Source: Kiritimatiellia bacterium (GTDB lineage Bacteria; Verrucomicrobiota; Kiritimatiellia; RFP12; UBA1067). Taken from it: a stretch of 64,000 nucleotides of DNA. The notes under the pieces were generated by a model, which ran no database searches, was not told where the DNA came from, and saw only the letters and a list, made by a program, of their open reading frames with translations. Each line of letters begins with the position of its first letter. Positions within the stretch are counted from its first letter, which is position 1. The position numbers and the translations under genes are program-made. The stretch is taken from NCBI GenBank assembly GCA_017514235.1, contig JAFWKK010000036.1:1-64000 (forward strand), written 5' to 3'. Shown here in pieces: positions 28,629 to 50,140 of the stretch.

Positions 28629-31600
28629 ATGCGCGTTCTGCTCCAGCTGTTCTGGGAATTCCTCCGCCTTTCGCTTTTTGTGATTGGCGGAGGATATGCC
28701 ATCATAGCCGTTGCCGACGATGCGTGCGCCAGGCGGGGTTGGACTGCGGAAGGAGAGCTTCTGGACCGCCTGCCGATCTTCCAGTCGATCCCCGGGCTGA
28801 TAGCCGCCCATTCCGCAGTCTACGTGGGCAACAAGGTCGCCGGCGGGCTTGGCGCCGCCGTTGCCGTAGTTGCCGTGGCGCTGCCGAGCGTAGTCGTGTT
28901 TTCGCTGGTTGCCGTCGGATACCGGTCTCTGCCTCTCGACAACGCGTTGGTTAAAAGCGCATTTGTCGGCCTTAGGGCCGCGCTCGCCGGCATCGTCGCG
29001 GCGGCATTGCTCCGGGGGTGGCGGCGGAGCCTGCCCGACGCGTTCTCATTCTTGCTTGCCGCCGCGGCCACGCTGGCGATAGGCGCGCTTGGCGTTAGCG
29101 CGGTGCTGGTGCTTGTTGCGGCGATGGCGGCCGGACTCGCGTCGCAGGCGTCCGGCGGCGGCGCGGCGGCAGGGCGCCGCACGTTCCGCTCGTCGCCCCT
29201 GGCACTGCTCGTTTTCCTCAAGTACGGGCTCGTGGGCTTCGGCGGCGGCTTCGCGCTCGTGCCGCTCTACGTCGCCGACTTCGTAGGCCCGGCCGCCGCG
29301 TACCTGCAGGTCTCGGCGGAGGATTTCGCCAACGTGATGGCGCTCTCGCAGATGACTCCGGGCCCGATAGGCGTGAACTGCGCGACGTTCTTCGGCTACA
29401 GGCTTTGCGGGCTGCCGGGCGCAGTCGCCGCGTCGGCGCTGCTGCTGCTGCCCGGCGCCGCGATATGCTTCGTAGCCGTCAGGTCGCTGGCGCGGTTCGG
29501 CGACAGCCGGATCGTCTCCGGCATAATGCGCGGCGCAAGGCCGGCGTCCGTGGCGCTTATGCTCTGCGCCCTGCGCATCTTCGCCGCTAACATTTGGTAT
29601 AATGTAACGGCAATCCTGATCGCAATGGCAACAACGGTGCTGATAATGAAGAAGAAAGCAAACGCAGTGCTCCTCATAGTCCTCTCGGCGTTCGCCGCGC
29701 TCGTCCTTCGGGCCGACGAACCCGTCACTTCGGCCCGCTTCCCCGACGCCGACGCCGTGATCGTCGACGAGACGGAACGCGTGCGCTACAACCCCGACGG
29801 CACCTACGAGTCGATCGAGGAGCGCTGGACGAAGATACTGACGGAGAAGGGCAGGCGCGACGAGAGTACGCTGCGCCTCGACTACTCGCGGCGCTACGGC
29901 GAGGCCGAGATAGCGTTCGTCAGGGCCGTCGGCGAGGACGGGCGGGAGCGCGAGATCGACGTCTCGGCGACAACGAAGGAGTCGACTGACAACGGGTTGA
30001 TGGCGTCGAACATCTACGATCCTCTTGACCGGCAGATCGTATGCACGATTCCCGGACTGAAGGTAGGCGACACGCTGCACGTGAAGATGCGCCGCACGGC
30101 GAAGAAGCCGCGCTGCCGAGACAAGTGGGCCGACCTGTCGGTGATGGAGTGGAAGGTGCCGATAGTGCGCGGAGTCTACGAGGTGACGGCTCCGCCGGAC
30201 CGTCCGCTGAAGCGGATACTTGTGCGCAATCCGCTCGGCAACGTCGTCACCAACGCCACGCGCCTTGCCGACGGCTCGATCGTCCATACGTTCACGGTCA
30301 CCAACTCCCCGCAGGCGTTCCCGGAGCCGGACATGCCGCCGCTCTACACCCAGGTACAGCACGTGCGCGTCTCGACGGCGGCGGACTGGCCGGAGATCTC
30401 GCGCTGGTACTGGGACCTTTGCGCTCCGCATCTCGTCAAGACGAACGCAGCCATGTGCGCCAAGGCGGCCGAGCTTGGACGCGACCTCCGCGCGATATTC
30501 AAGTTCGTCTCGCAAGAGGTGCGGTACATGGGCCTGACGATGGAGGACACTTCTCCCGGCTACGCCCCGCATGACGTCGACATCACCTTTGACAACCGCT
30601 ACGGCGTCTGCCGCGACAAGGCTGCGCTGCTTGTGGCGATGCTCCGCCTTGCCGGGTTCAAGGCGTACCCCGTGCTGATCCACGTCGGGGCCAAGCTCGA
30701 CCCGGACGTTCCCCAGCCGTTCTTCAACCACGCGATCGTGGCCGTCGAGGCGGAAGCAAGCGGGAGCGAGATGGAGAAGGCGGAGCGCGGAAGCGAGGAC
30801 GGGAGGTACGTCCTCATGGACCCGACGAACGAGAACGCCAAGGACATCTTTCCGGCATACCTCTGCAACAGGAGCTATCTCGTATGCTGTCCGGATGGCG
30901 AACGCCTGAAGACGTCCGCGATCCCGCCGCCCGGACGCAACCTGCTGGAGGTTGAGTCGTCGGGCTCCGTGTCGAAGGATGGGGCGCTTTTCCTCGAAAG
31001 CGAGATACGCTTCGCTGGCATCAACGACACGGCGTACCGTGGCGCGCTCGTCCGCCGCCAGCCTGGCGATCGCGTCAAGTTCTTCGAGAAGATCGTGCGC
31101 GCCATCGCGCCCGGCGCGGAGCTCGTGCGCTGCGACATCGAGCCGAAGGACATGCGCGACACGGATAGCCCGGTAGTAGTGCGGATGGCGGCGAACGTCC
31201 CCGAGGCGGTGATGCGCGGCGAGACGCAGTCAGTGCTGAACGTTCCGTTCCTGTCCGGAGCGCTTGGAATGGCGAACTTCCTGCTTTCCGGCAACACGTC
31301 GCTGGCGCAGCGCCGCTACCCGCTCGTCCTTGACACGACGGCGCGGGTCTCCGAGCGCGTGCGGATCGATCTCGGGGACTCGGTCGGCGCGGCGATTGAG
31401 CTGCCGGACGATTCGGTCGGCAAGCCGTCCGGCTGCCTGTTCGAGCGGTCGTTCGCCGTCACGAACGGCGAACTCAGCGCCGTGCGCTCGTTCTCCGTCG
31501 GCGCGGTCGAGTTTTCGCCGGCGGCGTACGCGGAGCTTCGAGAGGACATAAAGCGCATCGAGGCGGCATCGAGGCGGAAGCCGGTGTTCGCGGGGAATCC

Positions 31601-33353
31601 GCTCCGCGAGGCGGACTCCCGTTGCATGCTCTGCTCAACCGAGACGACGGTGTTCTCCGATCGGGCATGGACCACGACCAACACCATGGTCCGCGAGGTG
31701 CTGACCTACGCCGGCAAGAAGAAGTTCGCAGAGCTGAAGTTCTCGTTCAACCCCGCCGTGGAGACCGTTGAGCTTCTGCATGCGTCGATCAGCAACCGCA
31801 ACGGCGAGGTGCGTCTCGTGTCCGACCGCGAGAAGAACGTCATGGACTGCGGATGGGCCGCCGCCGCGCCGCGCTACCCTGCCGGCAAGCTGCTCGTAGT
31901 CAACCTGCCGGCGGTCGAGATCGGCAGCGTCATTTCATACACGACCGTTCGAACCGTGACTAACGCCCCTGCCGCATTTTACGCGGAGTACGGCTTCGAT
32001 TCCACGGAGCCCCTGGACAGGCGCGTAGTGCGCGTCAACGGCTGGCGCCGCGAAGTCACTGGTCCGCACCGCGTGCCGAAGGAATCCGACCAGCCCGATG
32101 CCGCGTTTTGGCGCGATGTGGTGATAGTTTCATCCAACCGGTTCGGGAGGCTTGACCTCGCGATCGGTCAGCTCGACCCGGCAAAGGCGATCGGCGAAGC
32201 CGCGGCAGACGGAGGTGCGGAGAGCAGGATCCGCGCTATCCGCGACTGGATGGCGAAGTACGTGAAGGTGGCAGGGCCGGGGCTCTGGGATCTGCCGGTC
32301 GGGCTTCAACTCACGCCGCCCGAGACGGTGCTGCGCGAACGCTACGCCACTCGGCTGGACTATTTGCGCACGCTATGCTCGCTGCTTCGCGGCGCTGGCT
32401 TCGAGGCGGACGTCGTGTTCGCATCGTCCGACGCCGACGAGCCGGAGGCGGTAAGGCGCCGCATCATGTTCGAGAAGCCGAATGTTCGCGTGTTTTCGTC
32501 TGCGCTTTGCCGCGTGACGTTGCGCGAAGGCGGTTTCCTCTGCTTCGGCGGCAAGGAAAGGACGTTCTTCCTCGGCACGGAAACCCAGTATTCGCCGCTA
32601 GGGCCGTCGTCTTATGCCGGCAGTGACTACTTCGATCCGGCGACGGGCGGATTCGGCATAGTTACCGTGCCGGACCCGAAGTTCGAGCGGTCGACGAGCG
32701 AAACGAGCGAATACGACGTGCGGGAGAACGGCTCAGTCGACCTGACGGTCGTGAACGAGATCGCAGGACCGGGCGTTGGCGCTTTCCGCAAGCGCTATTC
32801 GGAGATCCTGCCGGAGGAGCGTTCGCGCCGCTATCAGGAGATCCTTGGGAACGTTGCGCAGGCGGCGACGGCAACCGGCGACCTGGAGACGGACGTAGAA
32901 TCGTATCCGGCGCGCATGAAGTTCTCCTGCTTCATACCGGACTTTGCGACCGTGCAGGGCGATGCGATCACGATCCAGCTGCCGCCGCTGTCGTCGTCCA
33001 TCCCGTCCGCCGCAGGAAGCGTCCGCCAGACGCCGTTCGAGGTTGGCGCCTGTGACCCGGAGGAAGAACTGGTTACGGTGAAGTTCCCCGATGGGTTCGG
33101 CAAGCTTGAGCATCTGCCTTCGCCGTTCGTCTTCTCCGATCCGTCCGATCCCGGCAAGGTCTGGATGGAGAGCGAAGTCTCGTCGGCAAAAGGAGAGGAC
33201 GGACGCCTGGCCGTGACGATAAGGCGCAAGGTGCTGAAGCGCGGGGAGTCGTGGTACCGTCCGGAGTTTCACGAGTTGGTCAAGGACTGGCGGCGCATAG
33301 CCACTTCGCGCGGCAACCGTACCATAACCGTGCGGCGGCTGAAGGACAAGTGA
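28629..33353 (+). CDS. ChrA-type transporter fused in frame to a double DUF3857/transglutaminase protein
   Basis: One uninterrupted frame of 1,574 residues. Residues 1 to about 360 are a two-domain chromate transporter (ChrA): FLRLSLFVIGGGYAIIAV and FLKYGLVGFGGGFALVPLYV are the paired CHR motifs, with LSQMTPGPIGVN. From about 365 it is a DUF3857 domain and a transglutaminase-like core with Cys at 661 (NRYGVCRDKAALLVAML), FNHAIVAV (His) and LMDPTNENAKD (Asp). A second, related DUF3857/transglutaminase unit follows from about 1,020; it has Thr (1241) where Cys is expected. At the junction, residues 340-364 (MKKKANAVLLIVLSAFAALV and on) read both as the last ChrA helix and as a signal peptide, with an ATG at 29646. 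So there may also be a separate internal product starting at 29646 or 29625. The role of ChrA here is unknown. Confidence 0.75.
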   Translation: MRVLLQLFWEFLRLSLFVIGGGYAIIAVADDACARRGWTAEGELLDRLPIFQSIPGLIAAHSAVYVGNKVAGGLGAAVAVVAVALPSVVVFSLVAVGYRSLPLDNALVKSAFVGLRAALAGIVAAALLRGWRRSLPDAFSFLLAAAATLAIGALGVSAVLVLVAAMAAGLASQASGGGAAAGRRTFRSSPLALLVFLKYGLVGFGGGFALVPLYVADFVGPAAAYLQVSAEDFANVMALSQMTPGPIGVNCATFFGYRLCGLPGAVAASALLLLPGAAICFVAVRSLARFGDSRIVSGIMRGARPASVALMLCALRIFAANIWYNVTAILIAMATTVLIMKKKANAVLLIVLSAFAALVLRADEPVTSARFPDADAVIVDETERVRYNPDGTYESIEERWTKILTEKGRRDESTLRLDYSRRYGEAEIAFVRAVGEDGREREIDVSATTKESTDNGLMASNIYDPLDRQIVCTIPGLKVGDTLHVKMRRTAKKPRCRDKWADLSVMEWKVPIVRGVYEVTAPPDRPLKRILVRNPLGNVVTNATRLADGSIVHTFTVTNSPQAFPEPDMPPLYTQVQHVRVSTAADWPEISRWYWDLCAPHLVKTNAAMCAKAAELGRDLRAIFKFVSQEVRYMGLTMEDTSPGYAPHDVDITFDNRYGVCRDKAALLVAMLRLAGFKAYPVLIHVGAKLDPDVPQPFFNHAIVAVEAEASGSEMEKAERGSEDGRYVLMDPTNENAKDIFPAYLCNRSYLVCCPDGERLKTSAIPPPGRNLLEVESSGSVSKDGALFLESEIRFAGINDTAYRGALVRRQPGDRVKFFEKIVRAIAPGAELVRCDIEPKDMRDTDSPVVVRMAANVPEAVMRGETQSVLNVPFLSGALGMANFLLSGNTSLAQRRYPLVLDTTARVSERVRIDLGDSVGAAIELPDDSVGKPSGCLFERSFAVTNGELSAVRSFSVGAVEFSPAAYAELREDIKRIEAASRRKPVFAGNPLREADSRCMLCSTETTVFSDRAWTTTNTMVREVLTYAGKKKFAELKFSFNPAVETVELLHASISNRNGEVRLVSDREKNVMDCGWAAAAPRYPAGKLLVVNLPAVEIGSVISYTTVRTVTNAPAAFYAEYGFDSTEPLDRRVVRVNGWRREVTGPHRVPKESDQPDAAFWRDVVIVSSNRFGRLDLAIGQLDPAKAIGEAAADGGAESRIRAIRDWMAKYVKVAGPGLWDLPVGLQLTPPETVLRERYATRLDYLRTLCSLLRGAGFEADVVFASSDADEPEAVRRRIMFEKPNVRVFSSALCRVTLREGGFLCFGGKERTFFLGTETQYSPLGPSSYAGSDYFDPATGGFGIVTVPDPKFERSTSETSEYDVRENGSVDLTVVNEIAGPGVGAFRKRYSEILPEERSRRYQEILGNVAQAATATGDLETDVESYPARMKFSCFIPDFATVQGDAITIQLPPLSSSIPSAAGSVRQTPFEVGACDPEEELVTVKFPDGFGKLEHLPSPFVFSDPSDPGKVWMESEVSSAKGEDGRLAVTIRRKVLKRGESWYRPEFHELVKDWRRIATSRGNRTITVRRLKDK
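29595..29603 (+). promoter_or_regulatory. Possible internal promoter before the transglutaminase part
   Basis: TGGTATAAT at 29595-29603 inside the ChrA coding sequence (coding I-W-Y-N), 21 bases before ATG 29625 and 42 before ATG 29646. It is identical to the extended -10 used at other genes here. No clear ribosome site follows. Confidence 0.45.
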
Positions 33354-36405: not shown

Positions 36406-36879
36406 ATGGGCGACATAACATTCGAGCAGGCATGGAACTTCGGCGGGCCCCTCATGTGGGTGCTTGCGTTCTTCTCGGTGATGGGGCTTGCGGTGGCGTT
36501 CTACCTCTGGTATTCCCAGCGTCGCGGCATTTGCGTGCCCGATGCCGTCTCGCGTATACGTGCGGCGAAGGATCCTGCAGCGGAAGGCGGACGCATAGCC
36601 GACCGTATGATGGCGTCGGTGGACTGGCTGGCAGACATCGCGGCGATCTCGCCGCTCGTCGGACTGCTGGGCACGGTGCTCGGAATGTTCCGCGCGTTCG
36701 GCGGCATCGCTTCCGACGTGGCCGCAGGCGCAAAGCCAGTGGTGCTGGCTCAGGGCGTCTCTCAGGCGATAGTTACGACCATCTTCGGCCTTGTCGTGGC
36801 CATACCCGCGCTTCTCGCCCATGCGTTCTTCCGCCGCCGCGCCCAGCGCCGCATAGCCGAGATCGAGGAGCTGGCATGA
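36406..36879 (+). CDS. ExbB/TolQ/MotA family proton-channel subunit (short)
   Basis: A 157-residue inner-membrane protein with three hydrophobic segments: PLMWVLAFFSVMGLAVAFYL, then ISPLVGLLGTVLGMFRAFGG and QAIVTTIFGLVVAIPALLAH. The pair in the second half is the MotA/TolQ/ExbB signature that forms the pentameric proton channel. It is shorter than E. coli ExbB (about 240 residues), mainly in the cytoplasmic loop. With the ExbD homologue downstream (ATGA overlap) it would convert proton motive force into motion of a periplasmic partner; here the likely partner is the TonB-anchored VWA protein at 39190. Confidence 0.88.
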   Translation: MGDITFEQAWNFGGPLMWVLAFFSVMGLAVAFYLWYSQRRGICVPDAVSRIRAAKDPAAEGGRIADRMMASVDWLADIAAISPLVGLLGTVLGMFRAFGGIASDVAAGAKPVVLAQGVSQAIVTTIFGLVVAIPALLAHAFFRRRAQRRIAEIEELA

Positions 36880-37295
36880 AGTTCGTCCGCCGAACAGCCT
36901 CCCGTGCGCCCGGACTGGCGCTGACGTCGATGCTCGACGTGATTTTCCTTCTGCTCTGTTTCTTTGTGACGGTCAGCGTATTCTCGCAGTGGGAGAACGA
37001 GATTTCGATCCAGCTGCCGTCGGCGGCAACCGCGAAGGAGCCGGACCGCCTTCCCGGGGAGATCGTGATCAACCTGTCGAAGGAGGGCAAGGTGACGGTC
37101 AACGGGCGCGAGCTTGCCCTGGACGAGCTGAAGTCCCGCCTGGCGCGCATCTCGAAGTTCTACCCCGGCCAGCCGGTTATCATCAGGGCGGACCGCTCCA
37201 CGGCCTACGATAAGCTCGTTGGCGTGATCGACACCTGCCGTGAGGCTGACGTGTGGAACTTCTCGCTCGCCACCGAGGGAGGGGAGGGCAAGTGA
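36876..37295 (+). CDS. ExbD/TolR family proton-channel subunit
   Basis: A 139-residue protein with one N-terminal membrane helix containing the essential Asp21 (LTSMLDVIFLLLCFFVTV), then a periplasmic domain with EIVINLSKEGKVTVNGRELA and PVIIRADRSTAYDKLVGVID, the usual ExbD/TolR pattern. It works with the ExbB homologue as stator. The start overlaps ExbB (ATGA) and its stop overlaps the TPR gene (GTGA). Length is typical. Confidence 0.9.
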   Translation: MKFVRRTASRAPGLALTSMLDVIFLLLCFFVTVSVFSQWENEISIQLPSAATAKEPDRLPGEIVINLSKEGKVTVNGRELALDELKSRLARISKFYPGQPVIIRADRSTAYDKLVGVIDTCREADVWNFSLATEGGEGK

Positions 37296-39193
37296 CTCTC
37301 GCGGCCCTGGTGTTGGCGATCGCGGTGCTGCCGTCCGACAGGCTGGCGATGGCCGACCGTCTCTTCAACCGCGGGCGCTATGCTGATGCGGAGGCGGAGT
37401 ACCGTGCGCTTTCCGGCGCGAAGGGAGTTGCGGCCGACGAGTTGCTGTTCAGGCTGGCGGAGTGCGATCGTGTTGCCGGACGCAACGATGCCGCGCGTCG
37501 CGGATACGCCGAGATATTCAACCGCTATCCTGATTCGCGGCACGCCTCGCGGTCGCGGTTCATGTACGCGATGGGAGCGAGGGGAGCCGAGCGCACGCAT
37601 CTGCTGGCCGAGCTAGATTCCGACCGCGTCGCGACCGACGTGCGGGCCGCTGCGCTCTACTACTTGGGTTCGGAGACCGCCGACACGGAGGTTCTTGCCC
37701 GTTGCGTGAAGTTGGAGCCCAAGGGCAAGTACGCCCCTTACGCCAACCTTAAGATAGGAACGAAGTTCACCTCGTCGGACGACCCGGCCGTGCGCCGCAA
37801 GGGCGTGGAGACGCTGCTCGGGATCGCCTTCACGGGCGGCCCGATGGGCGCAGAGGCGCTTTATCTGGCAGCCCTGCAGTGCTACCGCGACCGCCGCTAC
37901 GGCGAGGCCGGCAGCCTCTTCCGGCGCTACCGCAAGCTGTACCCGTCGGGCGAGCACGCCGACGAGACGCGAACGATGTCAGTCTGGTGCGATTTTCTCG
38001 AAGGCCGGTACGCTGACGCGGCTGCGGCCTGCGGCAAGGGCGAGTCGGACGACCTTGCCTACATACGTGCGGCCTGCGCCTATGCGACGGGCGACAACGC
38101 GCGGGCGCTGGCCCTGTTCAAGAAGTACCTGGAAGATTACCCGGAAGGGCATTACCGGTCGGACGCCGAGCTTCCTGTGGCGCGCATAGAGTTCGAGGCG
38201 GCTCGCAAGGGCGACGATTCCGCGAAGACGGTTGAGACGGCGCGCCGCAGCTTCGGGCTGTCGAAGCTGGCGTCCGACCAGATACGGTTGGCGTGGGCCT
38301 ATGAGAAGGCGGGCAAGGCAGAGGCGGCCGCCGAGGAGTACGCGCAAGTTGCGAAGAAGTTTCCCGGCACGGACGAGGCGGCCGAGGCGATGTTCCGCCG
38401 GGCGATGATCGCGGCGGCGGCCGGCAACTGGTCTGGCGCGGAACTGGCGCTTGCGGAGGCGCTGGCGACGGGCCGCCTCGGGAAACGCAAGGCAGAGGCG
38501 CTCTACTGGCGCGGCGTGGCCGCCATGAAGCTCGGGCACGAGGAGACCGGCGCAGGGTTCCTGCGCGAGGCGATAGAGTCCGGGCTTTCGCTGGACGAGG
38601 CCCGCGAGGCGAAACTGATGGTAGCCGACTTCGACTACAAGTCCGGCAGGCTTGATGCGGCGCGGTCCGCATATTCCGAGCTGGTCCGCGACGGCGCCTG
38701 CGCGCGCATGAGCGCGTCGCGCATGCTTTCCGTAGGGCGGTTCCTCGGCGGGGCCGAGGCCGAGACATGCGCGCGGGAGCTCGCGAAAAGCGACGCGGCG
38801 GAATGGCGGCAGGCCGGCTGGGCGTTGCTCGGCTCGTGCGAGGAGAGCCGCGAGTCATATGCGGCCGCCATCGACGCCTACCGCAAGTGCCTGGCCGAGC
38901 CAGCCAGGACCGAGGCTGCGGCCGACGCGGCGCTGCGTCTCGGCAAGCTTGAGTTCCGCGCCGGTGAGTTCGCGGCGGCGGAAAACACGCTGAAGAAGGC
39001 GATAGCGCTGAATGCCTCCAACGCCCGCGCCCGCGCCGAGGCTTACGTCACCCTTGCGAAGAACGCGGAACAGGGCGGCGACGTGCAGTCGGCATGCGCA
39101 TACGCCACGGTTGTCGTGTCGCTGTTCGACGACGAGGCCCTGTGCGCCGAGGCGAAGCGGATACTTGCCGCGCATCCGGAGGCCGCGAAATGA
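37292..39193 (+). CDS. Periplasmic tetratricopeptide-repeat protein of the ExbBD-VWA operon
   Basis: A 633-residue protein starting at GTG 37292, which overlaps the ExbD stop. A short hydrophobic N-terminus (LAALVLAIAVLPSDRLAMA) is probably a signal peptide. The rest is about a dozen TPR-like helical pairs: LFNRGRYADAEAEYRALSGA, AARRGYAEIFNRYPDSRHAS, EAGSLFRRYRKLYPSGEHAD, ALALFKKYLEDYPEGHYRSD, KAEAAAEEYAQVAKKFPGTD, AAENTLKKAIALNASNARAR. This resembles the YbgF/Bam-type TPR proteins that accompany Tol and TonB systems, but much longer. It probably organises the envelope complex in the periplasm; the partner is inferred from the operon. Confidence 0.75.
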   Translation: MTLAALVLAIAVLPSDRLAMADRLFNRGRYADAEAEYRALSGAKGVAADELLFRLAECDRVAGRNDAARRGYAEIFNRYPDSRHASRSRFMYAMGARGAERTHLLAELDSDRVATDVRAAALYYLGSETADTEVLARCVKLEPKGKYAPYANLKIGTKFTSSDDPAVRRKGVETLLGIAFTGGPMGAEALYLAALQCYRDRRYGEAGSLFRRYRKLYPSGEHADETRTMSVWCDFLEGRYADAAAACGKGESDDLAYIRAACAYATGDNARALALFKKYLEDYPEGHYRSDAELPVARIEFEAARKGDDSAKTVETARRSFGLSKLASDQIRLAWAYEKAGKAEAAAEEYAQVAKKFPGTDEAAEAMFRRAMIAAAAGNWSGAELALAEALATGRLGKRKAEALYWRGVAAMKLGHEETGAGFLREAIESGLSLDEAREAKLMVADFDYKSGRLDAARSAYSELVRDGACARMSASRMLSVGRFLGGAEAETCARELAKSDAAEWRQAGWALLGSCEESRESYAAAIDAYRKCLAEPARTEAAADAALRLGKLEFRAGEFAAAENTLKKAIALNASNARARAEAYVTLAKNAEQGGDVQSACAYATVVVSLFDDEALCAEAKRILAAHPEAAK

Positions 39194-40836
39194 CGAAGGA
39201 GCGCCGCGAGGAAGCCGTGCTCGTGGCAGTCGCGGCGTCGGTGGCGATACACGTCGCGCTGATGCTGCTCGTGCGGCCCCATGTCATGACGCATGTCGTG
39301 ACAGATGCGACGAGGCACGTCCGCCACCCGCCGATGCGCGTCGTCAAGGCGGAGCAAAGGCCGGACCCGGTCGGCATCGGCGCGCTGGAGGATTTGCAGG
39401 CGGCGAAGGACGCGCCCGTCGCGGCCGTGGCGGTTCCCGTGGCCGAGGCCGTGGCCGACGGGCCTGTACGCGCGCCTGACGCGCCGGCACCGTCGGCAGT
39501 GGACGACACCGTGCCTCCGCCGCCGAAGGCCCCGGTGTTCGACGTGAGTCCCGTGAAGACAGGCGGCAAGGACGCCGCGGGAGGCGTCGCCGTTCCGATC
39601 ACGCGCATCGAGACGCCTGAGGCTGCCGCAGCTGCGGATTCCGCGCCGACGTTCTCGGTCGAGGTCCCGAAAACGGTGGTTCGCGAGGCCCCGCCCCCGC
39701 CGTCAGTTCCGCCAGCAGTCGCCGCCAGCGACCCGGTCGAGGCCCTGGGACCTGCGAAGATCATGCGCGAAGAGGCGTCGCGCGCCGCCCCTCCTCCCTC
39801 GTTCACTCCGGCGGCGGAAGTCTATGAGAAGGTAGACGAGCAGGTCGTTGCCGCAGAGAAGAAGGCGGTGAGCGCGCTTGTCGCCGCAGAGGACGCGAAG
39901 GAGCTCTCGAAGGCCGTCAACGCCGTCATGACTGCGACTGCCAAAGACGGATGGACGTATTTTCGCGTGATGCTCTCCCCGCGCGCCTCGCTGTCGGTCG
40001 TGCCCAAGGACTTCGTGGTGCTGATCGACGCGTCCGGGTCCATCGGCAAGGACAGAATGGCGTCGATACGCGGCGCGGCGCGGCGGATCCTGCGCAGCGC
40101 GGCGAACTCCGACGACCGCTTCAACCTCGTCGCGTTCCGCGACAGGTTCTCGTATGCGTTCCGCCAATGGCAGGAATGCACCAAGTCTTCCTTTGACGCG
40201 GCGGACAGGTGGATCGACAACCTGGCCGCTCACGGTCGCACCGACGTGTTCTCCACCATCAGTTCGGTGCTGACGCTGCCGCGCGACCCGACGCGTCCGC
40301 TGATTGCGCTCGTAGTCACCGACGGAGAGGCGAACGAGGGCGTGAGCGACACGGGGGAGATACTGTCAAAGTTCACGGCGCTCAACGACGGGCTGATCTC
40401 CGTCTACATGTACGGAGTTAAGACGTCGGCCAACCGTGCGCTCATAGACGTGCTCACGCGCGGCAACCGTGGCGAGAGCCTCATCTTCGACGGCTGGCAG
40501 AGGCGGCGGGCCGGCAGCGGCATAGAGGGCCTCACCGAGCGCTTCCGCGACCCGGTGCTGACCGACCTGCGCATCGTGTTCGCGTCCGGCACGCGTGCCG
40601 AGGCGTATCCGCGGCTCTTGCGCAACCTCTATCGCGGCGGGACGCTTGCGTTCGTCGGGCGGGTGCCGTCCGGCACGAAGGAGGTCGCGTTCTCCCTGAA
40701 GGGCCTGAACGGGAAGGACGCGTATGAGGGCTTCTTCAAGCTGCCGCTTGGAACGGCGCCCGCCGATCCGTCCGTTGCGGCCGCATGGAACGAGGAGCTG
40801 TCCATCGACAAGAGGCTTGGGTCGCATGCGAAATAG
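39190..40836 (+). CDS. TonB-anchored von Willebrand A (VWA) domain protein
   Basis: A 548-residue protein. The N-terminus has one membrane helix (about 9-28) with the TonB/TolA-type S17-x3-H21 pair (ASVAIHVALML), the pair that in TonB interacts with ExbBD. Residues about 35-215 are a Pro/Ala/Val-rich spacer like that of TonB. Instead of a TonB C-terminal domain there is a VWA domain (about 270-470) with an intact MIDAS: D280-x-S282-x-S284 (LIDASGSIGKD), the Thr in HGRTDVFST and the Asp in VTDGEANEG. A beta-rich tail (VLTDLRIVFASG, NLYRGGTLAFVGRVPSGTKE) follows. Last gene of the ExbB-ExbD-TPR operon; ATGA overlap. It would present an energised, metal-dependent ligand-binding head in the periplasm or near the outer membrane. 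Confidence 0.8.
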   Translation: MTKERREEAVLVAVAASVAIHVALMLLVRPHVMTHVVTDATRHVRHPPMRVVKAEQRPDPVGIGALEDLQAAKDAPVAAVAVPVAEAVADGPVRAPDAPAPSAVDDTVPPPPKAPVFDVSPVKTGGKDAAGGVAVPITRIETPEAAAAADSAPTFSVEVPKTVVREAPPPPSVPPAVAASDPVEALGPAKIMREEASRAAPPPSFTPAAEVYEKVDEQVVAAEKKAVSALVAAEDAKELSKAVNAVMTATAKDGWTYFRVMLSPRASLSVVPKDFVVLIDASGSIGKDRMASIRGAARRILRSAANSDDRFNLVAFRDRFSYAFRQWQECTKSSFDAADRWIDNLAAHGRTDVFSTISSVLTLPRDPTRPLIALVVTDGEANEGVSDTGEILSKFTALNDGLISVYMYGVKTSANRALIDVLTRGNRGESLIFDGWQRRRAGSGIEGLTERFRDPVLTDLRIVFASGTRAEAYPRLLRNLYRGGTLAFVGRVPSGTKEVAFSLKGLNGKDAYEGFFKLPLGTAPADPSVAAAWNEELSIDKRLGSHAK

Positions 40837-40903: not shown

Positions 40904-42077
40904 ATGAGAAGGGCATTCACACTCGTCGAGCTGCTTGTGGTGGTGGTGGTGATCGTCACGCTGATGGCGATTGCTCTTCCGATCTGGCAGCGTTGGCTCG
41001 CAATCGACGTTCAAGTCACGTACGATCAACCGCATGCAGCGGCTCGAAAACTGCCTTTCGGGATATTACGCCGCATACGGAAGTTATCCGCCGGTCGCCT
41101 TGCACGGCAGCCGAGACTACACTCTCAGGGTCGACGGCCACGGCATACAGCAGGAAAACCGCCATGAGCCGGACCTTGACTGGAGGCGCGTCGAAGCGGC
41201 TTGCCGCAGCCAGCCGGTCGGAATGAGCTTCCCGTTCTCGAGCCAGGATGTCGCCAGCTACGTCGAGGAGATTTCCAGGCTGCTGATGGAAAAGGCCAAC
41301 TCCAACGAGGCCCGCTACAAGAACTTCAGGGACAACGAGGCTCTCAAGTACGGCTTCTTCGCCCTTACCGGCAACTCACAGATACAGAGCAAGTCCAAGT
41401 ATTCGTCATGGTCGCAGGTGCAGGTGTTCAAGCTTGGGCTCATGAGTTACCTGTTGCCGCGGCTTCTGGTGATATTTAACGTCCAGTCCGGTTCCGGCAG
41501 CGCACCTTCCGGGTTCAGCCAGCTGTTCTCGAAACAGAATCAGTGGACCATGTGCAACGAGCTGCCGTGCGACTTCTCCACCGGCCAGCCGTATGCCAGC
41601 TGGGACGACGTGATCAGGGACATGTGGAGCAGAAACGACCGGTGGAAGATCGCCGCCCTTCCGTCCCAGGCGGTCTGTGCGCGCTGGATGCCCAACCTGG
41701 AGGGGATCGTCGCGGGCGCGTCCTACAGCCGCATGTTTTACGGCGTGCGCCCCTACGACACCGTACACGGCTCATACGTGGTCTCTGCCGACACGGTCAA
41801 TCCTACGCTGTACTCGGCTGGCGACTCGCAGAGCGGCGGCGACAACTACTCGCAGCAGTATCTGCTCGACAACATGACTGTCTTGGACGGGTGGGCCCAC
41901 GAATTCTACTACTATTCGCCCTCGCCGCACCAGTCCTACACGCTGTGGAGCGCGGGCCCGAACGGCAGGACGTTCCCGCCGTGGGTGACGGACGAGGAGC
42001 TTTCGCAGCTCAGAAGCTCCGATCGCACGACGGCACAGTCGTGGATCGCCGACGACATCGTGCATCTGAAGAACTGA
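40904..42077 (+). pseudogene. Prepilin-type protein, frameshifted after the N-terminal helix
   Basis: The gene starts MRRAFTLVELLVVVVVIVTL with the prepilin cleavage site (A/FTLVE) and membrane helix, in the frame of base 40904. After LMAI (codon ending 40972) that frame goes astray and stops at 41167. The expected continuation LFRSGSVGSQSTFKSRTINR, then MQRLENCLSGYYAAYGSYPP, lies in the +1 frame from 40974 and runs to TGA 42077. One extra base near 40973 therefore splits it. The C-terminal part is about 367 residues and ends near a LWSAGPNGRTFP loop. Either a real disruption, a programmed shift or an assembly error; no homopolymer lies at the site. It heads the pseudopilin cluster. Confidence 0.75.
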
Positions 42078-42097
42078 GAAGGGTTGGGAGGTTCGGA

Positions 42098-42733
42098 ATG
42101 TTGAGAAAGAAGGTTCAGAGGTTTTCGCTTCCTGGCTTCACCTTGATCGAGATGCTGGTGGTGATGGGCATTCTGGCCATTCTCATCGGCGCGGGCATGA
42201 CCACGTTCTCGGCGGCTACGAAGAAGGCGCAGCAGGCCCGCGCCCGCGAGGTCGTGAGCAACGTGGCGACAGCCCTTGAGGCCATATACCAGCGCGAAGG
42301 GAGCTTTCCGCGGCGTGTGCTCAGCACCGGCGGCCGTGACGGCGAGATGACCGACGACGTGGCCTACGAGCTGGCGAAGCGAAACGTGATGACGCTGACA
42401 TACGACAGCAGCAAGAAGAAGACCGTAGGCGCCGACAGCTGCGGCATACTTACGCCGTGGGGGCAGGACACGGTGAAGCGCAAGGGCAACAGGGGCGTCT
42501 CTGACAGCACGAAGGTGCCGTCGGGCGGCACGATCAAGGACCACCGCATCCACTTCGCGGTCGACACCGAGGGCTTGGGCTATGTCAATGCGTCGGTCGG
42601 CGGCGAAACGGTGAAGATACGTGCTTCCGCCGTGGCATGGAGCTGCGGAAGGGACGGCAAGATCGAGAAGTACACCGACGGGCTTCGGCGCGACAACTGC
42701 TACAGCTGGAGCCGCCAGCAGGTTGAGAAGTGA
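42098..42733 (+). CDS. Prepilin-type (pseudopilin) protein 2
   Basis: A 211-residue type II secretion/type IV pilus-like pseudopilin. The leader ends SLPG/FTLIEMLVVMGILAIL with Gly at -1 and Glu at +5, cleaved and N-methylated by a prepilin peptidase not present in the window. The helix continues ATKKAQQARAREVVSNVATALEAIYQREG, the GspG-like spine. The C-terminal domain ends with AWSCGRDGKIEKYTDG, comparable to the calcium loop of GspG. GGGAGG lies about 6 bases before the ATG. Confidence 0.85.
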   Translation: MLRKKVQRFSLPGFTLIEMLVVMGILAILIGAGMTTFSAATKKAQQARAREVVSNVATALEAIYQREGSFPRRVLSTGGRDGEMTDDVAYELAKRNVMTLTYDSSKKKTVGADSCGILTPWGQDTVKRKGNRGVSDSTKVPSGGTIKDHRIHFAVDTEGLGYVNASVGGETVKIRASAVAWSCGRDGKIEKYTDGLRRDNCYSWSRQQVEK

Positions 42734-42753
42734 CAAGGGGGAGCTAAAGAAAG

Positions 42754-43404
42754 ATGACTAGGGGAACTGGTAGAAAGGGACTGTCGGCAGGCTTCACCAT
42801 CGTCGAGCTTTTGGTGGTGATCTCCATCATCGGCATTCTGCTCGGCATCGTGACGACGGCTGCCACGGGTTCGATCAAGAACGGGCGTTCGCGCCGCGCC
42901 GAGGCGATGGCCAACGCCCTGCAGCAGGCGATCGCGGCGTACTACGCGCAAGAGGGCCGCTGGCCGGATGCGATCGAGTCGCGTAGCGGCAGCATGGGCA
43001 ACAAGACCAAGTACACGTTCACCGCCACCGAGGCCGACCAGATATTCCGCGACGTCGTCCGCAAGTCGGTAGGCACTGGCGCGTCGCGTCCGCTCGTCGA
43101 CGCCTCTGCGCTTTTCGTGGCGAACGCAAGCCGGGTGCGCGGCGACGGTTGCTTCGACGTGCACGGCGACAAGAGCTGCACGGCGTACTGCGGCGATCAG
43201 CACTGCATAAACGGCGTCGACTTCTCGCTTGCCGCCAACAAGGACTCGAAGGTGCACGTTCCGCTCAGCAACATGGCGTTCGGCTGGCAGGGCCGAACCA
43301 ACGGCAAGTTCTGCCGCTTCTGGATAACGTACAACTCGCAGACCGACTCCGTGAGCGTGTCGCGCAAGCACCCTGAGAAGAGCTATCCTGCCGACTGGGA
43401 GTGA
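42754..43404 (+). CDS. Prepilin-type (pseudopilin) protein 3
   Basis: A 216-residue pseudopilin with leader ending LSAG/FTIVELLVVISIIGIL (Gly -1, Glu +5), then a helix with SRRAEAMANALQQAIAAYYAQEG. The C-terminal domain contains two Cys-rich points (GDGCFDVHGDKSCTAYCGDQ and HCIN) that may form disulfides after export. A GGGGGAG ribosome site precedes the ATG. It lies between two other prepilin genes and likely belongs to the same assembly. Confidence 0.85.
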   Translation: MTRGTGRKGLSAGFTIVELLVVISIIGILLGIVTTAATGSIKNGRSRRAEAMANALQQAIAAYYAQEGRWPDAIESRSGSMGNKTKYTFTATEADQIFRDVVRKSVGTGASRPLVDASALFVANASRVRGDGCFDVHGDKSCTAYCGDQHCINGVDFSLAANKDSKVHVPLSNMAFGWQGRTNGKFCRFWITYNSQTDSVSVSRKHPEKSYPADWE

Positions 43405-43412
43405 CGATCGAG

Positions 43413-44267
43413 ATGCGCCGCGCGTTCACATTGATGGAGCTGATGGTCGTCGTGGGAATCATGGCGTTCCTCGGCGTCGCCGCGACAAACGGCTATAACG
43501 CCCTCCAGCGCGGCATGGCGGAACGCGGGGCCGTCGATGCGGCCAGCGCGCTGCTGAAGGCCGCCAAGGAGCGCGCGATGGTCGATCGCGTGCCTACGGC
43601 GGTGTTCTGCTACAACCGCATGATTCGCGAAGCGTCGGAGGACGAGAACGCCGTAATAGTTGGCGAGGCTGTGGCGATCCGCCGCTACGGGCGCATCACG
43701 TGCGTGCAGGGCAAGTACCTCTACGATGAGTTTGGCGACCTTGACAGCAGCTACGACAGGCTGACGTCAAGCCAGCAGTCCGAACTGCAGAACCGCAAGG
43801 GAATGCGCCTTTGGCGATTTGACGACCAGGACATGGCCCAGATGCAGTATTCGGTAGTCGCCGATGCGGTGTATGACGACAATGACATCGGCGGAGCATT
43901 CTCGTTCATGCCGTGGGGCGACCAGCTGGGCGACAACGGCGGCAGCTCGTCGAGCAACATTGAGATTCGCGCATGCGCGTTCTACAACCTTGACAAAAGC
44001 GACCATGAGCCACCCTCCTGGCAGGTCGGCAACGGATACGGCTTCGAGTTCCAGACAATCCGCCTTCCCGATGGGTTCGTGTTCAAGAACACCATTCCCT
44101 CGAGAGTCGGCAGCGTTGCGATGGCCGGTTCCTTCCTCTTCGATCCGGCGAACTTTTCCGCGAACGAGTCGATTGACATTTGGGCGTGCCGGGCGGACGC
44201 TAGCGGCGTATCGCGGCCGCACCACAAGGCGGGCACGGCTACCAGCTCCGGAGACAAGGCCAAATGA
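43413..44267 (+). CDS. Prepilin-type (GspH-like) protein 4
   Basis: A 284-residue pseudopilin beginning MRRA/FTLMELMVVVGIMAFL with Ala at -1. The region after the helix (LQRGMAERGAVDAASALLKA followed by AKERAMVDRVPTAVFCY) resembles GspH/FimT minor pseudopilins. The C-terminal part is beta-rich and ends Ser/Lys-rich. I chose ATG 43413, which has GGAGTGA 9 bases upstream; GTG 43401 is an alternative that overlaps the previous stop. It overlaps the next gene by ATGA. Confidence 0.8.
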   Translation: MRRAFTLMELMVVVGIMAFLGVAATNGYNALQRGMAERGAVDAASALLKAAKERAMVDRVPTAVFCYNRMIREASEDENAVIVGEAVAIRRYGRITCVQGKYLYDEFGDLDSSYDRLTSSQQSELQNRKGMRLWRFDDQDMAQMQYSVVADAVYDDNDIGGAFSFMPWGDQLGDNGGSSSSNIEIRACAFYNLDKSDHEPPSWQVGNGYGFEFQTIRLPDGFVFKNTIPSRVGSVAMAGSFLFDPANFSANESIDIWACRADASGVSRPHHKAGTATSSGDKAK

Positions 44268-44854
44268 AGCGCATGAGACAGGCTTTCACCCTTATGGAGG
44301 TAAACCTCGCCATCTTCATCATGGCGACGGGCGTGCTGGGCATGGTTTCGCTATACTCGCTTGGCTTCCGCGAAAGCCGCCAGAGCGAGGAGGACGTCGC
44401 TTCAGCCGGCCTTGCCGACGCGTTTCTCTCTCCGCTTGTGACAGGGCTTTCGGCAACTAACATGACGTGGAGCGGCTGGTGCCAGGCCGTGCCTCACATA
44501 TCCAGCGAAGCCTGCAACGGGCTTGCGCCGCAGAAGGGCGGCGACAACAACGGTTGGGCGGCCTACGTGACGAGGCTGGACTCCGACGGCGACGGCGCAT
44601 ATGAGTCATATCGCGTCGACTCCGGGTGGCAGAGTCTCGCCAACAGGGTCTTCAGCGGCATCATCGGGCAGGTTCCAAGCGAATACAGGGGTTCGCTTCC
44701 GTCGGTCAGCTCCGACTATTGCTACGGGCTTGTCGCGACGCGCAAGGGGTCGACCATCTCGCTGGCGTTTCGGGCGAGCCGGCGCCGCGAGGCGTTGCTT
44801 AGCCAGCCGGTATATTACACCGAAGTTCATTTCCAGGGGAGGACAGACCAGTGA
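44264..44854 (+). CDS. Prepilin-type (GspI/PilV-like) protein 5
   Basis: A 196-residue minor pseudopilin, leader KRMRQA/FTLMEVNLAIFIMA with Glu +5 and the ATGVLGM turn typical of GspI/PilV. The middle has a D-x-D-x-D-G loop (RLDSDGDGAYESY) that could bind calcium. Overlaps its neighbours by ATGA and GTGA. Predicted to act at the tip of a short pseudopilus, by analogy with GspI. Confidence 0.78.
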   Translation: MKRMRQAFTLMEVNLAIFIMATGVLGMVSLYSLGFRESRQSEEDVASAGLADAFLSPLVTGLSATNMTWSGWCQAVPHISSEACNGLAPQKGGDNNGWAAYVTRLDSDGDGAYESYRVDSGWQSLANRVFSGIIGQVPSEYRGSLPSVSSDYCYGLVATRKGSTISLAFRASRRREALLSQPVYYTEVHFQGRTDQ

Positions 44855-45399
44855 AGCGTTCCGGATTCACTGTTCTTGAGCTGCTGGTGGCGTCGCTTCT
44901 GCTGTCGATGCTCGTCACCATACTGACCATGATCTTCAACCAGTCGTCGATCGCCTGGCGTACCGGCGTTGCGGGCGTCGTCGAGCTTGACCGCGTGCGT
45001 ACCCGCCTCGGCACCTACCACGATATCGAGGATGACGCCCTGCCGGGCCTCGGGCAAACCGCGTCCCAGGCTGGCGCCGGCGCGAGCGACAACCGCCAGA
45101 TCCTCTACCGCACCGTGTCGGTCTTCAAGGGCTGGAACGGCAGCGGCAAGCTCCAGCAGAACGCCGATCGCGACGACAGCAACTGCCGGGGCCGCCTCTA
45201 CGACCAGATCAAGTGGCGCGAGGCGTCGGCAATCCAGTTCACCATGCAGGACGCGCGCGTCGGCCGCGCAAACACCGGCGTCGGTTCCGGCACGGTTCAG
45301 GGCGGCAGCGCCTTTGTAGTCGGCGTGCGAAGCTGGGGCCCCGACAAGAAGCTGAACACGGCCGACGACATCAACACCTTCCCGGAGGATGTAAACTGA
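44851..45399 (+). CDS. Prepilin-type (GspJ-like) protein 6
   Basis: A 182-residue minor pseudopilin starting at GTG 44851 (GTGA overlap), leader KRSG/FTVLELLVASLLLSML. The LELLVA...LL pattern resembles GspJ/PilW. The C-terminus contains GVRSWGPDKKLNTADDINTF, close to the S-x-G-P-D-G-x-x-G-T-x-D-D-I calcium loop of GspG-type pseudopilins but at the extreme C-terminus. Confidence 0.78.
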   Translation: MKRSGFTVLELLVASLLLSMLVTILTMIFNQSSIAWRTGVAGVVELDRVRTRLGTYHDIEDDALPGLGQTASQAGAGASDNRQILYRTVSVFKGWNGSGKLQQNADRDDSNCRGRLYDQIKWREASAIQFTMQDARVGRANTGVGSGTVQGGSAFVVGVRSWGPDKKLNTADDINTFPEDVN

Positions 45400-45854
45400 T
45401 GAGGCGCGGCTTTACCCTGATAGAACTGCTGGTGGTGGTCGCCATGATCGCCGTGCTCATAGGTGCGGTCGGCACTGGCATGAAACAGGCGCGGCGCCGC
45501 GCACAGATCGCCAGGGCGACGCAGGACGTCAAGGAGATGACGAACGCGATCCTTGCATTCGAGAACTACGCCAGGGGCCGCTCGCTGAAGAACTACGCGA
45601 CAGGCAGCTGGAAGGAAACCACCGAAACGTCCCTGTCGATGATTCTCGGAGGCGAGGAGTCCGACAGCGGCGAACCGGTGCCTGTGCTTTACAACGCGCA
45701 GATCCGCAACGGTCAGATACTCGATCCGTGGGGCAGGCCGTACGAGTTCATGATAAAGCGTGTCGGCGACATCACGCCTCCAAGCAGTTCAAGCTTCCAG
45801 ACGGCTCCAAGCTTGCCCAACTTCTACCGACTTATTGACGAGGAGAGGGAATGA
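45399..45854 (+). CDS. Prepilin-type (GspG-like) protein 7
   Basis: A 151-residue pseudopilin, leader MRRG/FTLIELLVVVAMIAVL, with a GspG-like spine (ARRRAQIARATQDVKEMTNA) and LDPWGRPYEFMI, the classic GspG DPWG-PY motif. It is the best candidate for the major pseudopilin of the cluster. Start overlaps the previous stop (TGATG) and its end overlaps the GspK-like gene (ATGA). Confidence 0.85.
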   Translation: MRRGFTLIELLVVVAMIAVLIGAVGTGMKQARRRAQIARATQDVKEMTNAILAFENYARGRSLKNYATGSWKETTETSLSMILGGEESDSGEPVPVLYNAQIRNGQILDPWGRPYEFMIKRVGDITPPSSSSFQTAPSLPNFYRLIDEERE

Positions 45855-48800
45855 GAGGCATTTCCAGAAAAGGTTCCGCTCTGCTGATCGTGCTCGGCAT
45901 GCTGTCGTTCATGGTCGTCTCGGCCGTGGGATTTTCGTTCTACATGCGTTCCAGCCGTGTCCCTTCGAGCTATCTAAGGCGCAACATCGCTGCGCGCTAC
46001 CTGGTGCGTTCGGCCCTCGCTAAGGCCATAGAGGAACTGGAGGGCGACTTCAACAACGATCCCGACTGGGGCAAGATTGATGAAACGGATGCCACCGCCG
46101 TGCCGCAACGCTTCTACGGCATCTATGACGACCCGTTCCCCGGCGTCGTGCTGGGCGATTCCTCGGCGCGTTCCAACCCGAGCCTGAACGGCGACTACTG
46201 GGCGGGGGGGCGCGTGTTCATGCCGTTCGGCCCCGTGCGTTCGGATCGCGACAAGCCTTCTGCGACGGTACCGACGCTGACCCTGGAAGCGCTCGCCTAC
46301 CTGCCGCCGGCAATCGTCGACGACGTGCGTAGGCTTTCCCGCCTTACGCGCACGGCAAGCTGGCGCGCCTTCCCCTATGACTCGGGCCGCTACGCATACT
46401 GCGCCGTCAACGTGTCCGACATGTTCGACATAAACCGCCTCCGCGCGAACGTTCCGCGCAACTCCGGCCGCGACCGCATCACTCTCGCTTCGCTTTGCGC
46501 CAAGACCTTCGGCGAACCGACCGACATCGACGCTGGAGCCGCCGCCGAACTTGACAGGCTTCTTGACAAGGTGGAGAATAACGGCAAGCTGAACGGCAAC
46601 GTAGTGCCGTTCACCTCCATAGCCGACTTCAATGTCGTCGCCGGTTCGGGCAGCGACTATGCGCCGTTTATGGATTTCATCGGGACCTCGGACAGAGGCC
46701 CTCTCGCCAGGCGGAGCAGTTCGTCCAAGACGGCGAACGCAATGTTCATAACCGATACCTGGTTCCCGCCGACCAATGCCGTCGGCCAGACGGTCTTCGA
46801 CCTCGGCTCCAACGCCCAGCCGTTCAAGGATTATAACGCCTCGTCGTTCTTGACTACACTCCTGTCCATGAACAATGCTGACGGCGTCGACCAGCTCTAC
46901 CAGAAGAACCTCGGCCTTGGCATTGCCTGTCTTTACGATTACCTTGACAGCGACTCGAAGCCGATTTCGCTTACGATTCCTACCGTCGAGGCTGTGCCCA
47001 TGGTGGTCGGCATCGGCCACCCCGCCGGTCTTCAGCCCGCGCTTGGCGAGATTGGAACTCCTGAAGAAAGCGAAGTTCCGGGGCTCTCGGGAACCGCGTG
47101 TGACGACGACGGAAACCCTGTCAACGTCAACAATATCGTCGCAAAGCGCATTTGCCGCAAGTTCGGCATCACCTCCTTTGGCAACCGAATTACGGTTACT
47201 GTAGTTGCGACATGTCCGTTCAAGCGGCTGAAGACGGAGCAGCGTGCCAAGGCTTACAGCCTCAGGGGTCTTATGCGCGTGTGGCTGGCGCCTGATGGAA
47301 TGGGCTGTCGACCGAGCGTTGCCGACAGCCTTTATCCGGCGCAAGCAGATTGGAGAAATGGAGACGTCAAGAACGGGGTGGCAACGTTTCTCAGCGACAT
47401 AAAGACGCTGACAAGCTTCAACAACGACATCCAGACCACTGCTGATGCAATAGTCGACGGGGCCGAGGTGGCGCTGACGTTCTCCGATCTTGACGTTCAG
47501 ATGCCGATATACTATAAGGTTGAGGAGTCCACTCCGACGGCTCCCGCCGGATACCGTCCGCCCGTTGCTGCCGACGAGTCTAACTTCAGGGCTTCGTATT
47601 CTTCGTTCGGGAACGTGAAGGATATCGCCACTGCGTTGCGTCCGTTGACTGTCGCCGGCGGGATTGACGGGACATGGAAAGGGCTCGCCGATAATGCGAG
47701 ATTCAATACGACAGCTCCGTACCCAAGCGGAGTTACCGAGCTTGACGTGGCCAGTCTTCAAACCGAGTACCGCCTTTATGCAGCCGTATGGGTACAGGTC
47801 ATGGACGGTTCTCAAGTCGTGGACATGGTGCCGGCGTGCGTGACGGATGACAACGAGTGGCTGAGCGCTAGTTTGCCGGAGAACAACGCAATCATTCAGA
47901 AGACTGGCGACGGAGCCCCGTTGCTCAACTTCAAGGCCGATGCCGCGATAAAGTACGCGGACATTGAGACGACGCTTGCCGCGCCGCCGGTCTTCACCGC
48001 GTGGAAGGCTCTCTACGCAGTCGATCCGCGCTACAACTTCGCTCCGGAGGACTGGTTCTCGTCCACTGCAAGCGATGTGGCCAGCAAGCAAGAATGGATG
48101 CAGCTTCTCGGACTGAACGGAGCGTCCTCCTCCGTCATGGGACAGGGCGGACGCGACCGCGACATCTTCATGTTCGTATCCGACCAGGAGTACCTGCAGT
48201 CCATCGGCGAGCTGCAGTTCCTGCCGCGTCTTGACGTCATGGACGGTTCGGCCAACTTCATGACCGGCGACTATTCGCCCAACTTCCACGGCAAGCCTTT
48301 CTCTGACCGCACGGGACCGACGACGGGCGACTTCGCCAATGGCGGACGCTTCTGGAAGACATACACCGCATTCGACAACGGAGACGGCACGATAGGCATA
48401 AACCCATATGCGATGCAGTACAACGGCAAGGAGGTTGCAGTCCTCCCCGGCTCCAGCGGGTTCAAGCTCAACCCGTTCTCCGCGGACGACCGCGTCATAA
48501 CCGCCGCGCTTGTCGGAACCCCGTTTGACTACTACGTCGCTTCGACCAACTCGAGCCAGGTCCAGTCCGGCGGAAATCCTAACAGGATTGTCGCCAACAT
48601 GACGCTGTCGCAGATGATGGACACGTACTCGTTCGGCAAAAGCAGTCTTGCGAAGATGTCGGCAGACGACCTGTTTGACATTGCCGGTGCAATCAGCGAT
48701 GCGTTCCGCAACAGGGCTGAACAAGGTTATGCAGACTGGCTGGCCGGCTGGAACTCCCTCATGTGGCAGGAAATCGCAGGAAACCGCATAAACGACGAGA

Positions 48801-49150: not shown

Positions 49151-49162
49151 GCGACGAAAACC

Positions 49163-50140
49163 ATGAAAAGAGCTTTCACCATCATTGAACTCCTCGTCGT
49201 GATCGGCATCATAGGCGTCCTCGCCGGCGTGCTGATGACGAGCTTTTCCGGCGGCACGGAGTCCGCCAGGGCCGCGAAGTGCCTCTCCAACATGCGCAAC
49301 CTTGCGCAGGGATCCATAGCCTATGCGTCTGACCGCGGACGCTTCCCCTACGCCGGCAGTCATGCGGCGATAGGCGTCGACGACAACGGCAGGACCTACT
49401 ATCAGGAGAACGTCGGTTGGATCAGCTGGCTTTCCAAGAACGACGAGTACAACACACACCGATCCAAGGGCGGCCTGGCGCGCAGCTTCCAGAAGTGCTC
49501 CAACATAAGCGCCTTCTGCGCCGACGAGGAGGACGCGGCTTTCGCCATCACCAACGGCGCAATCTGGAAGTTCGTGGGGCAGAACCGCGAGACCTACATC
49601 TGCCCGTCTCACGCTATCCGCGCAAAGAAGCATGCCGTGACGGCGCGTTTCAGCTATGCGATGAGCGCCTATTTCGGCTATGACTGGACGAAAGGCTCCA
49701 AGTCCGCCACGTCCGTCCATGCCGGCTTCGTCACGCTGAACAACGACAGCCGGCTTGACCGCAAGCTGCTTTTCGCCGAGCTGCCGTTCGGCATACCGGG
49801 CGCAAGCGACTCGGCGAACGAAGTCTCCGAGGACGAGGCATACGCCAGGGCAAACGACTCCTATCTGGTGGACTGCACGCTCCAGTACAAGGCGACCTAC
49901 AAGGGGAAGTCCTACCATTCCGACTGGAACGGCACCGCCGAGTCGATAGCCTTCAACCACAGGAGCGGCAAGCGCTACTGCGCCCATGTGGCGTTTGCCG
50001 ACGGACATGTGGAGAAGCTGCTGCTGCCGAAGAAGTCCGGCGGGCTGAATTCCGTCCAGCTGACAGCCTTGCTCTGCGGCGGCGTCGACGTCTCGTTCGA
50101 CGGCTCGACTTACGATCTAATCACGGACGGCGACAAGTAG
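49163..50140 (+). CDS. Prepilin-type protein with H-x9-DG (DUF1559-like) domain
   Basis: A 325-residue protein, leader MKRA/FTIIELLVVIGIIGVL with Ala at -1. The helix continues SARAAKCLSNMRNLAQGSIA, and the C-terminal part has the AHVAFADGHVEKLLLPKK motif typical of DUF1559/H-x9-DG prepilins that are multiplied in Planctomycetes, Lentisphaerae and Verrucomicrobia. No ribosome site is visible; it is 12 bases after the GspK-like gene and probably coupled to it. Confidence 0.82.
   Translation: MKRAFTIIELLVVIGIIGVLAGVLMTSFSGGTESARAAKCLSNMRNLAQGSIAYASDRGRFPYAGSHAAIGVDDNGRTYYQENVGWISWLSKNDEYNTHRSKGGLARSFQKCSNISAFCADEEDAAFAITNGAIWKFVGQNRETYICPSHAIRAKKHAVTARFSYAMSAYFGYDWTKGSKSATSVHAGFVTLNNDSRLDRKLLFAELPFGIPGASDSANEVSEDEAYARANDSYLVDCTLQYKATYKGKSYHSDWNGTAESIAFNHRSGKRYCAHVAFADGHVEKLLLPKKSGGLNSVQLTALLCGGVDVSFDGSTYDLITDGDK

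Follow-up and report, generated by a model that had tools for sequence, protein, structure and literature searches.

An apparent proton-powered membrane motor tipped with an integrin-like metal-site head instead of a TonB tip in Kiritimatiellae gut bacteria

Ton and Tol are the classical carriers of proton-motive force to the outer membrane, and the anchor of TolA is of the SxxxH type. A further kind of transducer concerns Tichowtungia, a kiritimatiellote. Under the name 'vWA force transducers' a class was described in 2025 by prediction (Williams-Jones et al., Mol Biol Evol; PMC12204202, section 8), with Tichowtungia as the first example and with the function given as unknown. The same section independently predicts lateral docking of the helix of these proteins on the motor, with its His as the contact, finds the complete SHLS motif, Leu and second Ser included, in 'many' of them, and notes the absence of any reported deletion phenotype. 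The papers listed by our literature searches included no experimental study of the class. The sequence-only reading of the locus presented here had stated that no system of this form was known to it, a claim that fails because section 8 of PMC12204202 describes the same class, with Tichowtungia as founding example; its core reading, an ExbBD-driven head with a metal site, agrees with that section.

In the window, by which we mean the whole stretch of 64,000 nucleotides that was analysed, four genes on the forward strand form one operon in which successive genes share 4 bases. The first encodes a motor subunit of the ExbB/TolQ type in a short form of 157 amino acids (36406–36879; Pfam MotA_ExbB, 1.3e-24), the second a motor subunit of the ExbD/TolR type of 139 amino acids (36876–37295; Pfam ExbD, 1.4e-27), the third, which starts with GTG, a TPR protein of 633 amino acids (37292–39193; Pfam TPR_6, 2.9e-17, and other Pfam matches) and the fourth a TonB-anchored VWA transducer of 548 amino acids (39190–40836; Pfam VWA, 7.7e-10, residues 274–421). 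The ExbB/ExbD pair and the 633-residue TPR protein had been read from the letters before, and Pfam matches and 4-base overlaps bear this out. Judged by eye, the TPR protein is probably exported; an alternative in-frame GTG start at 37253 would give it an Arg-rich N-terminus. Its orthologues are found throughout the class. YbgF-like repeats (TIGR02795) score over the cut-off in it, and we considered orthology to YbgF or BamD and rejected it, putting the similarity down to generic TPR likeness. The operon is flanked by an AXE1-like hydrolase gene and by pseudopilin-like genes; a run of the latter together with a 1099-aa gene lacking a Pfam match directly follows the VWA gene (40904–50140). Elsewhere in the window (28629–33353) an open frame of 1574 amino acids joins two chromate-transporter domains to DUF3857 and a transglutaminase-like domain, an unusual fusion if real. 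The window is part of a genome of the Kiritimatiellae type, and the closest named contig belongs to a goat-ileum Kiritimatiellae MAG, in which the VWA protein is 95% identical.

The VWA protein begins with a TonB-type membrane helix (core at residues 8–30, 39211–39279), located by the alignment of 92 sequences described below and by a scan for SxxxH, and AlphaFold2 predicts a helix at residues 3–32, a linker of low confidence at about 33–200 and a head that is mostly confident. The linker (residues 33–205, 39286–39804) is rich in Pro and Ala and is taken as disordered from its mostly low pLDDT and its Pro content; in the aligned region 30–250 the median Pro fraction is 0.125. From the Pfam match and the alignment, the VWA domain comprises residues 274–450 (40009–40539). 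In the predicted fold it is set, like the VWA domains of ITIH1 and integrin beta, in a beta-sandwich whose strands lie on either side of it (243–264 and 455–519, 39916–40746) and resemble a hybrid domain. The helix motif S17-x3-H21 and the MIDAS residues D280-x-S282-x-S284 lie where the sequence-only reading had put them, and T351 and D378 complete the MIDAS. The HMM search which that reading had proposed for the C-terminus returned the VWA match and, in the 548-aa protein, no TonB_C or TonB_2 match at E<=1 in Pfam; at the same threshold neither a TolA family (Pfam, NCBIfam) nor a VIT domain (Pfam) was matched.

The 288 genomes of the phylum that we searched contained matches to the VWA protein in 137 cases, which means that the arrangement in the window is no chance product. 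Loci were retrieved from 100 of these 137 genomes, and 91 of them were aligned with the window to give 92 rows; left out were four VIT-VWA paralogues (L072–L075), one locus with its frame split in two (L056) and four cut by contig ends (L059, L077, L105, L131). A scan of the most hydrophobic segment found SxxxH in 90 of the 100 loci, the other ten being the four VIT-VWA paralogues, three contig-end cuts, the split frame (which carries the SxxxH helix on its upstream piece) and two true departures, with Thr-x3-His in L066 and Thr-x3-Tyr in L069. The four paralogues match Pfam VIT at 2.3e-27 to 2.6e-36 and serve as a control, being devoid of the SxxxH helix. Across the alignment, column 17 is Ser in 90 rows and Thr in two and column 21 is His in 91 rows and Tyr in one, while no other helix column (3–32) exceeds 66.3% (Ala13, 61/92). 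The MIDAS columns are conserved to a similar degree: D280 and D378 in all 92 rows, S282 and S284 in 91 each and T351 in 90. By the spacing that we take to be that of the E. coli SHLS motif, its Leu and second Ser would fall on V28 and V32 of the window protein; column 28 is Leu in 32 of 92 rows. One scan of viral contigs with a single family member (L042) found no relative.

Directly behind the helix, residues 47–54 (PPMRVVKA, 39328–39351) show a hydrophobic alternation in the alignment that is reminiscent of a D-box, column 49 being hydrophobic in 83 of 90 rows, column 51 in 78 of 91 and column 54, where the window protein has Ala, in 76 of 87; Pro occupies column 48 in 48 of 90. By analogy with the D-box of TonB, which binds ExbD (PMC10907165), this segment could possibly form a beta-strand that recruits ExbD. 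Further along the linker many homologues (e.g. L042, L044, L048, L052) carry a motif PR-x-x-IP-x-x-x-R-x-x-x-APD, which is degenerate in the window protein (residues ~132–170).

The sequence-only reading had also proposed a search for the same gene neighbourhood in other genomes, and the operon is indeed conserved elsewhere. ExbB lies upstream in 20 of the 92 rows, window included, all of them on one side of one branch (41 rows, SH-aLRT 100); on the other side, none of the 51 rows is linked, 46 standing alone and 5 having too little upstream DNA. In total, the VWA gene stands by itself in 57 rows and is accompanied by the TPR gene alone in 5, while 10 rows have too little upstream sequence for a decision. 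Surveys by gene neighbourhood would thus overlook many members, since the 57 sequences that stand alone compare with 20 that are linked. Among the named contigs, the best 80 of 204 showed ExbB, ExbD and TPR upstream in 44, only TPR in 27 and none in 9, several of the last two groups being cut by the contig end; 62 of these 80 entered a separate alignment (A3), from which L155 and L181 were left out owing to a stop in the matched stretch. In this family, TPR and VWA are thus the tighter pair.

That so many of the aligned sequences (57/92) adjoin neither ExbBD nor TPR would fit a static tether or adhesin in the envelope, dependent on a metal, whose TonB-type helix was inherited and is no longer energised, all the more as VWA domains are often adhesins without a motor. 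We consider this unlikely, given that Ser and His are near-invariant while the remaining helix columns drift, and given that 35 of the 57 genomes in which the VWA gene is unlinked carry the ExbB-ExbD-TPR trio at another locus. Ser17 and His21 are near-invariant also in that half of the tree (51 rows) that contains no stator-linked row.

The count of 35 comes from a search of the 57 unlinked genomes with a TPR-protein profile (A4), three linked genomes serving as controls. A TPR match at E<1e-50 was found in 44 of the 57, namely in 37 of 39 from the same order or class and in 7 of 18 from other parts of the phylum, for which the profile has less sensitivity. ExbB and ExbD were checked at the best TPR locus per genome, and the trio list did not include nine unlinked genomes whose TPR match, if any, was not strong. 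ExbD and ExbB were directly upstream on the same strand in 35 of 57 genomes (26/39 and 9/18), and in one further genome ExbD alone was upstream. By the best TPR locus only, the full trio is absent in 22 of 57, among them one genome (G079) in which a weak TPR match adjoins ExbD and a partial ExbB. No SxxxH-anchored protein was found downstream of the detached trio in 36 loci, of which 29 extend 1.2 kb or more beyond the TPR gene and seven (L249, L250, L260, L262, L269, L274, L276) fewer than 600 bases or not at all.

For comparison we used 20 listed genomes of the 151 lacking a VWA match, all from the same family, order or class. None of these 20 has the trio and one (G026) has a TPR match at E<1e-50, which gives Fisher p values of 2e-7 for the trio (26/39 vs 0/20) and 3e-12 for the TPR gene (37/39 vs 1/20), both counted by genome and uncorrected for relatedness. 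Counted by family, with families classed by hand and with G084, G026 and G107 excluded (they lack VWA in families otherwise having it), the trio occurs in 8 of 11 against 0 of 6 (p 0.009). One family (f2) has eight unlinked genomes, of which seven carry the TPR orthologue but lack ExbBD in the surrounding 1.5 kb, while in the eighth (G154) the TPR search found nothing. ExbD was detected in all 77 genomes tested, with or without the VWA gene, and its mere presence is therefore uninformative on coupling. Neither is the association of TPR and ExbB unique to the VWA system, since an ExbB gene lies on the downstream side (order TPR-ExbB) at 10 of the 18 best TPR loci from VWA-less genomes, as it does on contig 62 of the host. 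Other TPR-ExbB operons therefore exist, and it is only the order ExbB-ExbD-TPR, combined with a strong profile match, that accompanies VWA. Taken together, the operon is split in many genomes, yet its parts co-occur, and ExbB, ExbD, TPR and VWA are thereby defined as parts independently of gene order.

The motor subunits are well conserved whether linked or detached. In ExbB, P83, G86, G89, T125 and G128 are present in 57 of 57 sequences and T90 in 55, and in ExbD the residues M19, D21, E40, P48, N66, G71, R104, D106, D119 and C121 are present in 58 of 58; D21, which lies in the helix, is a candidate proton acceptor. Residues that we offer for testing are S17, H21 and D280 of the VWA protein and D21 of ExbD. 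Two neighbours recur around the separated parts: the unlinked VWA gene lies directly 3' of a rho-like gene, recognised by a Rho C-terminal pattern, in 21 of 57 genomes (e.g. L050, L052, L053, L057), and in many genomes of the class (L227–L229, L256–L259 and others) the detached trio is followed by a Cys-rich gene of ~190 amino acids with no family match over the cut-off, in whose place L237 has a longer protein with a low-molecular-weight phosphatase domain.

The host genome has five ExbB loci, among them a separate ExbB-ExbD-TonB_C operon (TonB_C, 1.2e-21) and, on contig 28, an ExbB-ExbD pair grouped in an operon with the gene of a Pro-rich TonB/TolA-like protein. An assignment of the latter as TolA was rejected, as it has no Pfam match at E<=0.01 and no convincing PDB chain match. 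The host further encodes two TonB-receptor plugs and, on a contig other than the window's, one OmpA-domain protein that starts like a lipoprotein and resembles Pal. These genes bear on the idea that the VWA protein replaces TolA or TonB, its head binding a TonB-dependent receptor or Pal/TolB and performing normal Ton or Tol work. The idea gains from the occurrence of the family in a species without discernible TolA or TonB, as section 8 of PMC12204202 has it; with a TonB_C operon, a TonB/TolA-like operon, two receptor plugs and a Pal-like lipoprotein all in the same host, we regard it as quite improbable here. Since a TonB_C protein is present besides, the VWA system is an additional transducer in this host. 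Two other motor loci of the host are worth recording: on contig 32 (L137, 8175–11739) an ExbB gene and two ExbD-like genes accompany a 575-aa protein that has a single hydrophobic segment and matches squalene-hopene cyclase repeats only weakly (at 0.0032, which does not reach the cut-off), possibly another unusual ExbBD motor effector, and on contig 62 (L138, 1219–4767) the order is TPR, ExbB, ExbD and a 156-aa protein without family match.

That the operon is part of a secretion or pilus machine, as might be thought from the pseudopilin-like genes that begin ~70 bases downstream of the VWA gene and from a sub-cut-off N_methyl match in one downstream gene, is very improbable, and we dropped this link because among the best 80 of 204 loci, several of which have little downstream DNA, only one, the 95%-identical L140, shows a prepilin-like motif in the 3.5 kb that follow.

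Our preferred reading, to which we give a probability of roughly 0.7, is that of a further system, over and above Ton and (probably) Tol, that carries energy across the envelope and in which an ExbBD motor pulls through the MIDAS head of the VWA protein. ExbB and ExbD would form the proton-driven motor in the inner membrane, on whose ExbB the VWA protein would dock by its S17/H21 helix, probably giving ExbD a beta-strand (residues ~47–54) in the same way as TonB. The flexible linker would take the integrin-like head across the periplasm, where the MIDAS metal might take hold of an envelope partner by an acidic ligand and let the motor pull on it; the periplasmic TPR protein would be a close partner, as adaptor or ligand. 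The earlier suggestion of an ExbBD-driven, metal-dependent head is upheld as regards coupling and the metal-site head, while metal binding itself and the transmission of force are still inferred. Coupling of the VWA protein to the ExbBD motor is, at the level of sequence, well supported by the near-invariant Ser and His, the intact MIDAS, operon conservation and the co-retention of the trio. Of the findings that the sequence-only reading had named as refuting it, a TonB_C domain concealed in the tail or a helix lacking ExbBD-contact features along with an operon not conserved elsewhere, our checks turned up none. More tentatively, and by analogy with the integrin hybrid domain under force, the pull of ExbBD on the beta-sandwich might switch the affinity of the MIDAS for its envelope ligand, in the manner of a force-gated clutch. 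If this doubtful idea were true, many Kiritimatiellae and other lineages of the phylum would possess a further general energiser of the envelope, with the TPR protein as partner. These gut bacteria look as if they carry a proton-powered membrane motor whose arm is tipped with an integrin-like metal-site head rather than a TonB tip, and if there is a further transducer with so different a head, bacteria would be energising an envelope process so far unrecognised.

Compared with known systems, the window protein is like TonB in the ExbBD-TonB system in its SxxxH helix, Pro-rich linker, ExbBD pair and possible D-box, but differs in having a head of VWA domain and beta-sandwich instead of TonB_C. 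With TolQRA it has in common an anchor of the SxxxH type, a stator pair and a TPR protein taken as periplasmic (cf. CpoB in Tol-Pal), whereas its head is a VWA domain and no tolB or pal was seen beside the window operon. The VWA domain within a beta-sandwich and the MIDAS are shared with ITIH and other VIT-VWA proteins and with the integrin beta headpiece; unlike ITIH and VIT-VWA proteins, the window protein has a TonB-type membrane anchor and no VIT domain. From the vWA force transducers as described in section 8 of PMC12204202 the system differs in the single ExbD detected in the window, as at each linked locus, where theirs is a pair of TolR-like genes, and in the split-operon arrangement, which is absent from that section. 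The TonB/TolA-like helix with conserved His, the Pro-rich linker, the C-terminal VWA domain, the adjoining TPR and tolQ/tolR-like genes and the PVC hosts are common to both, and the window system is a further member of this class, of a kind already described.
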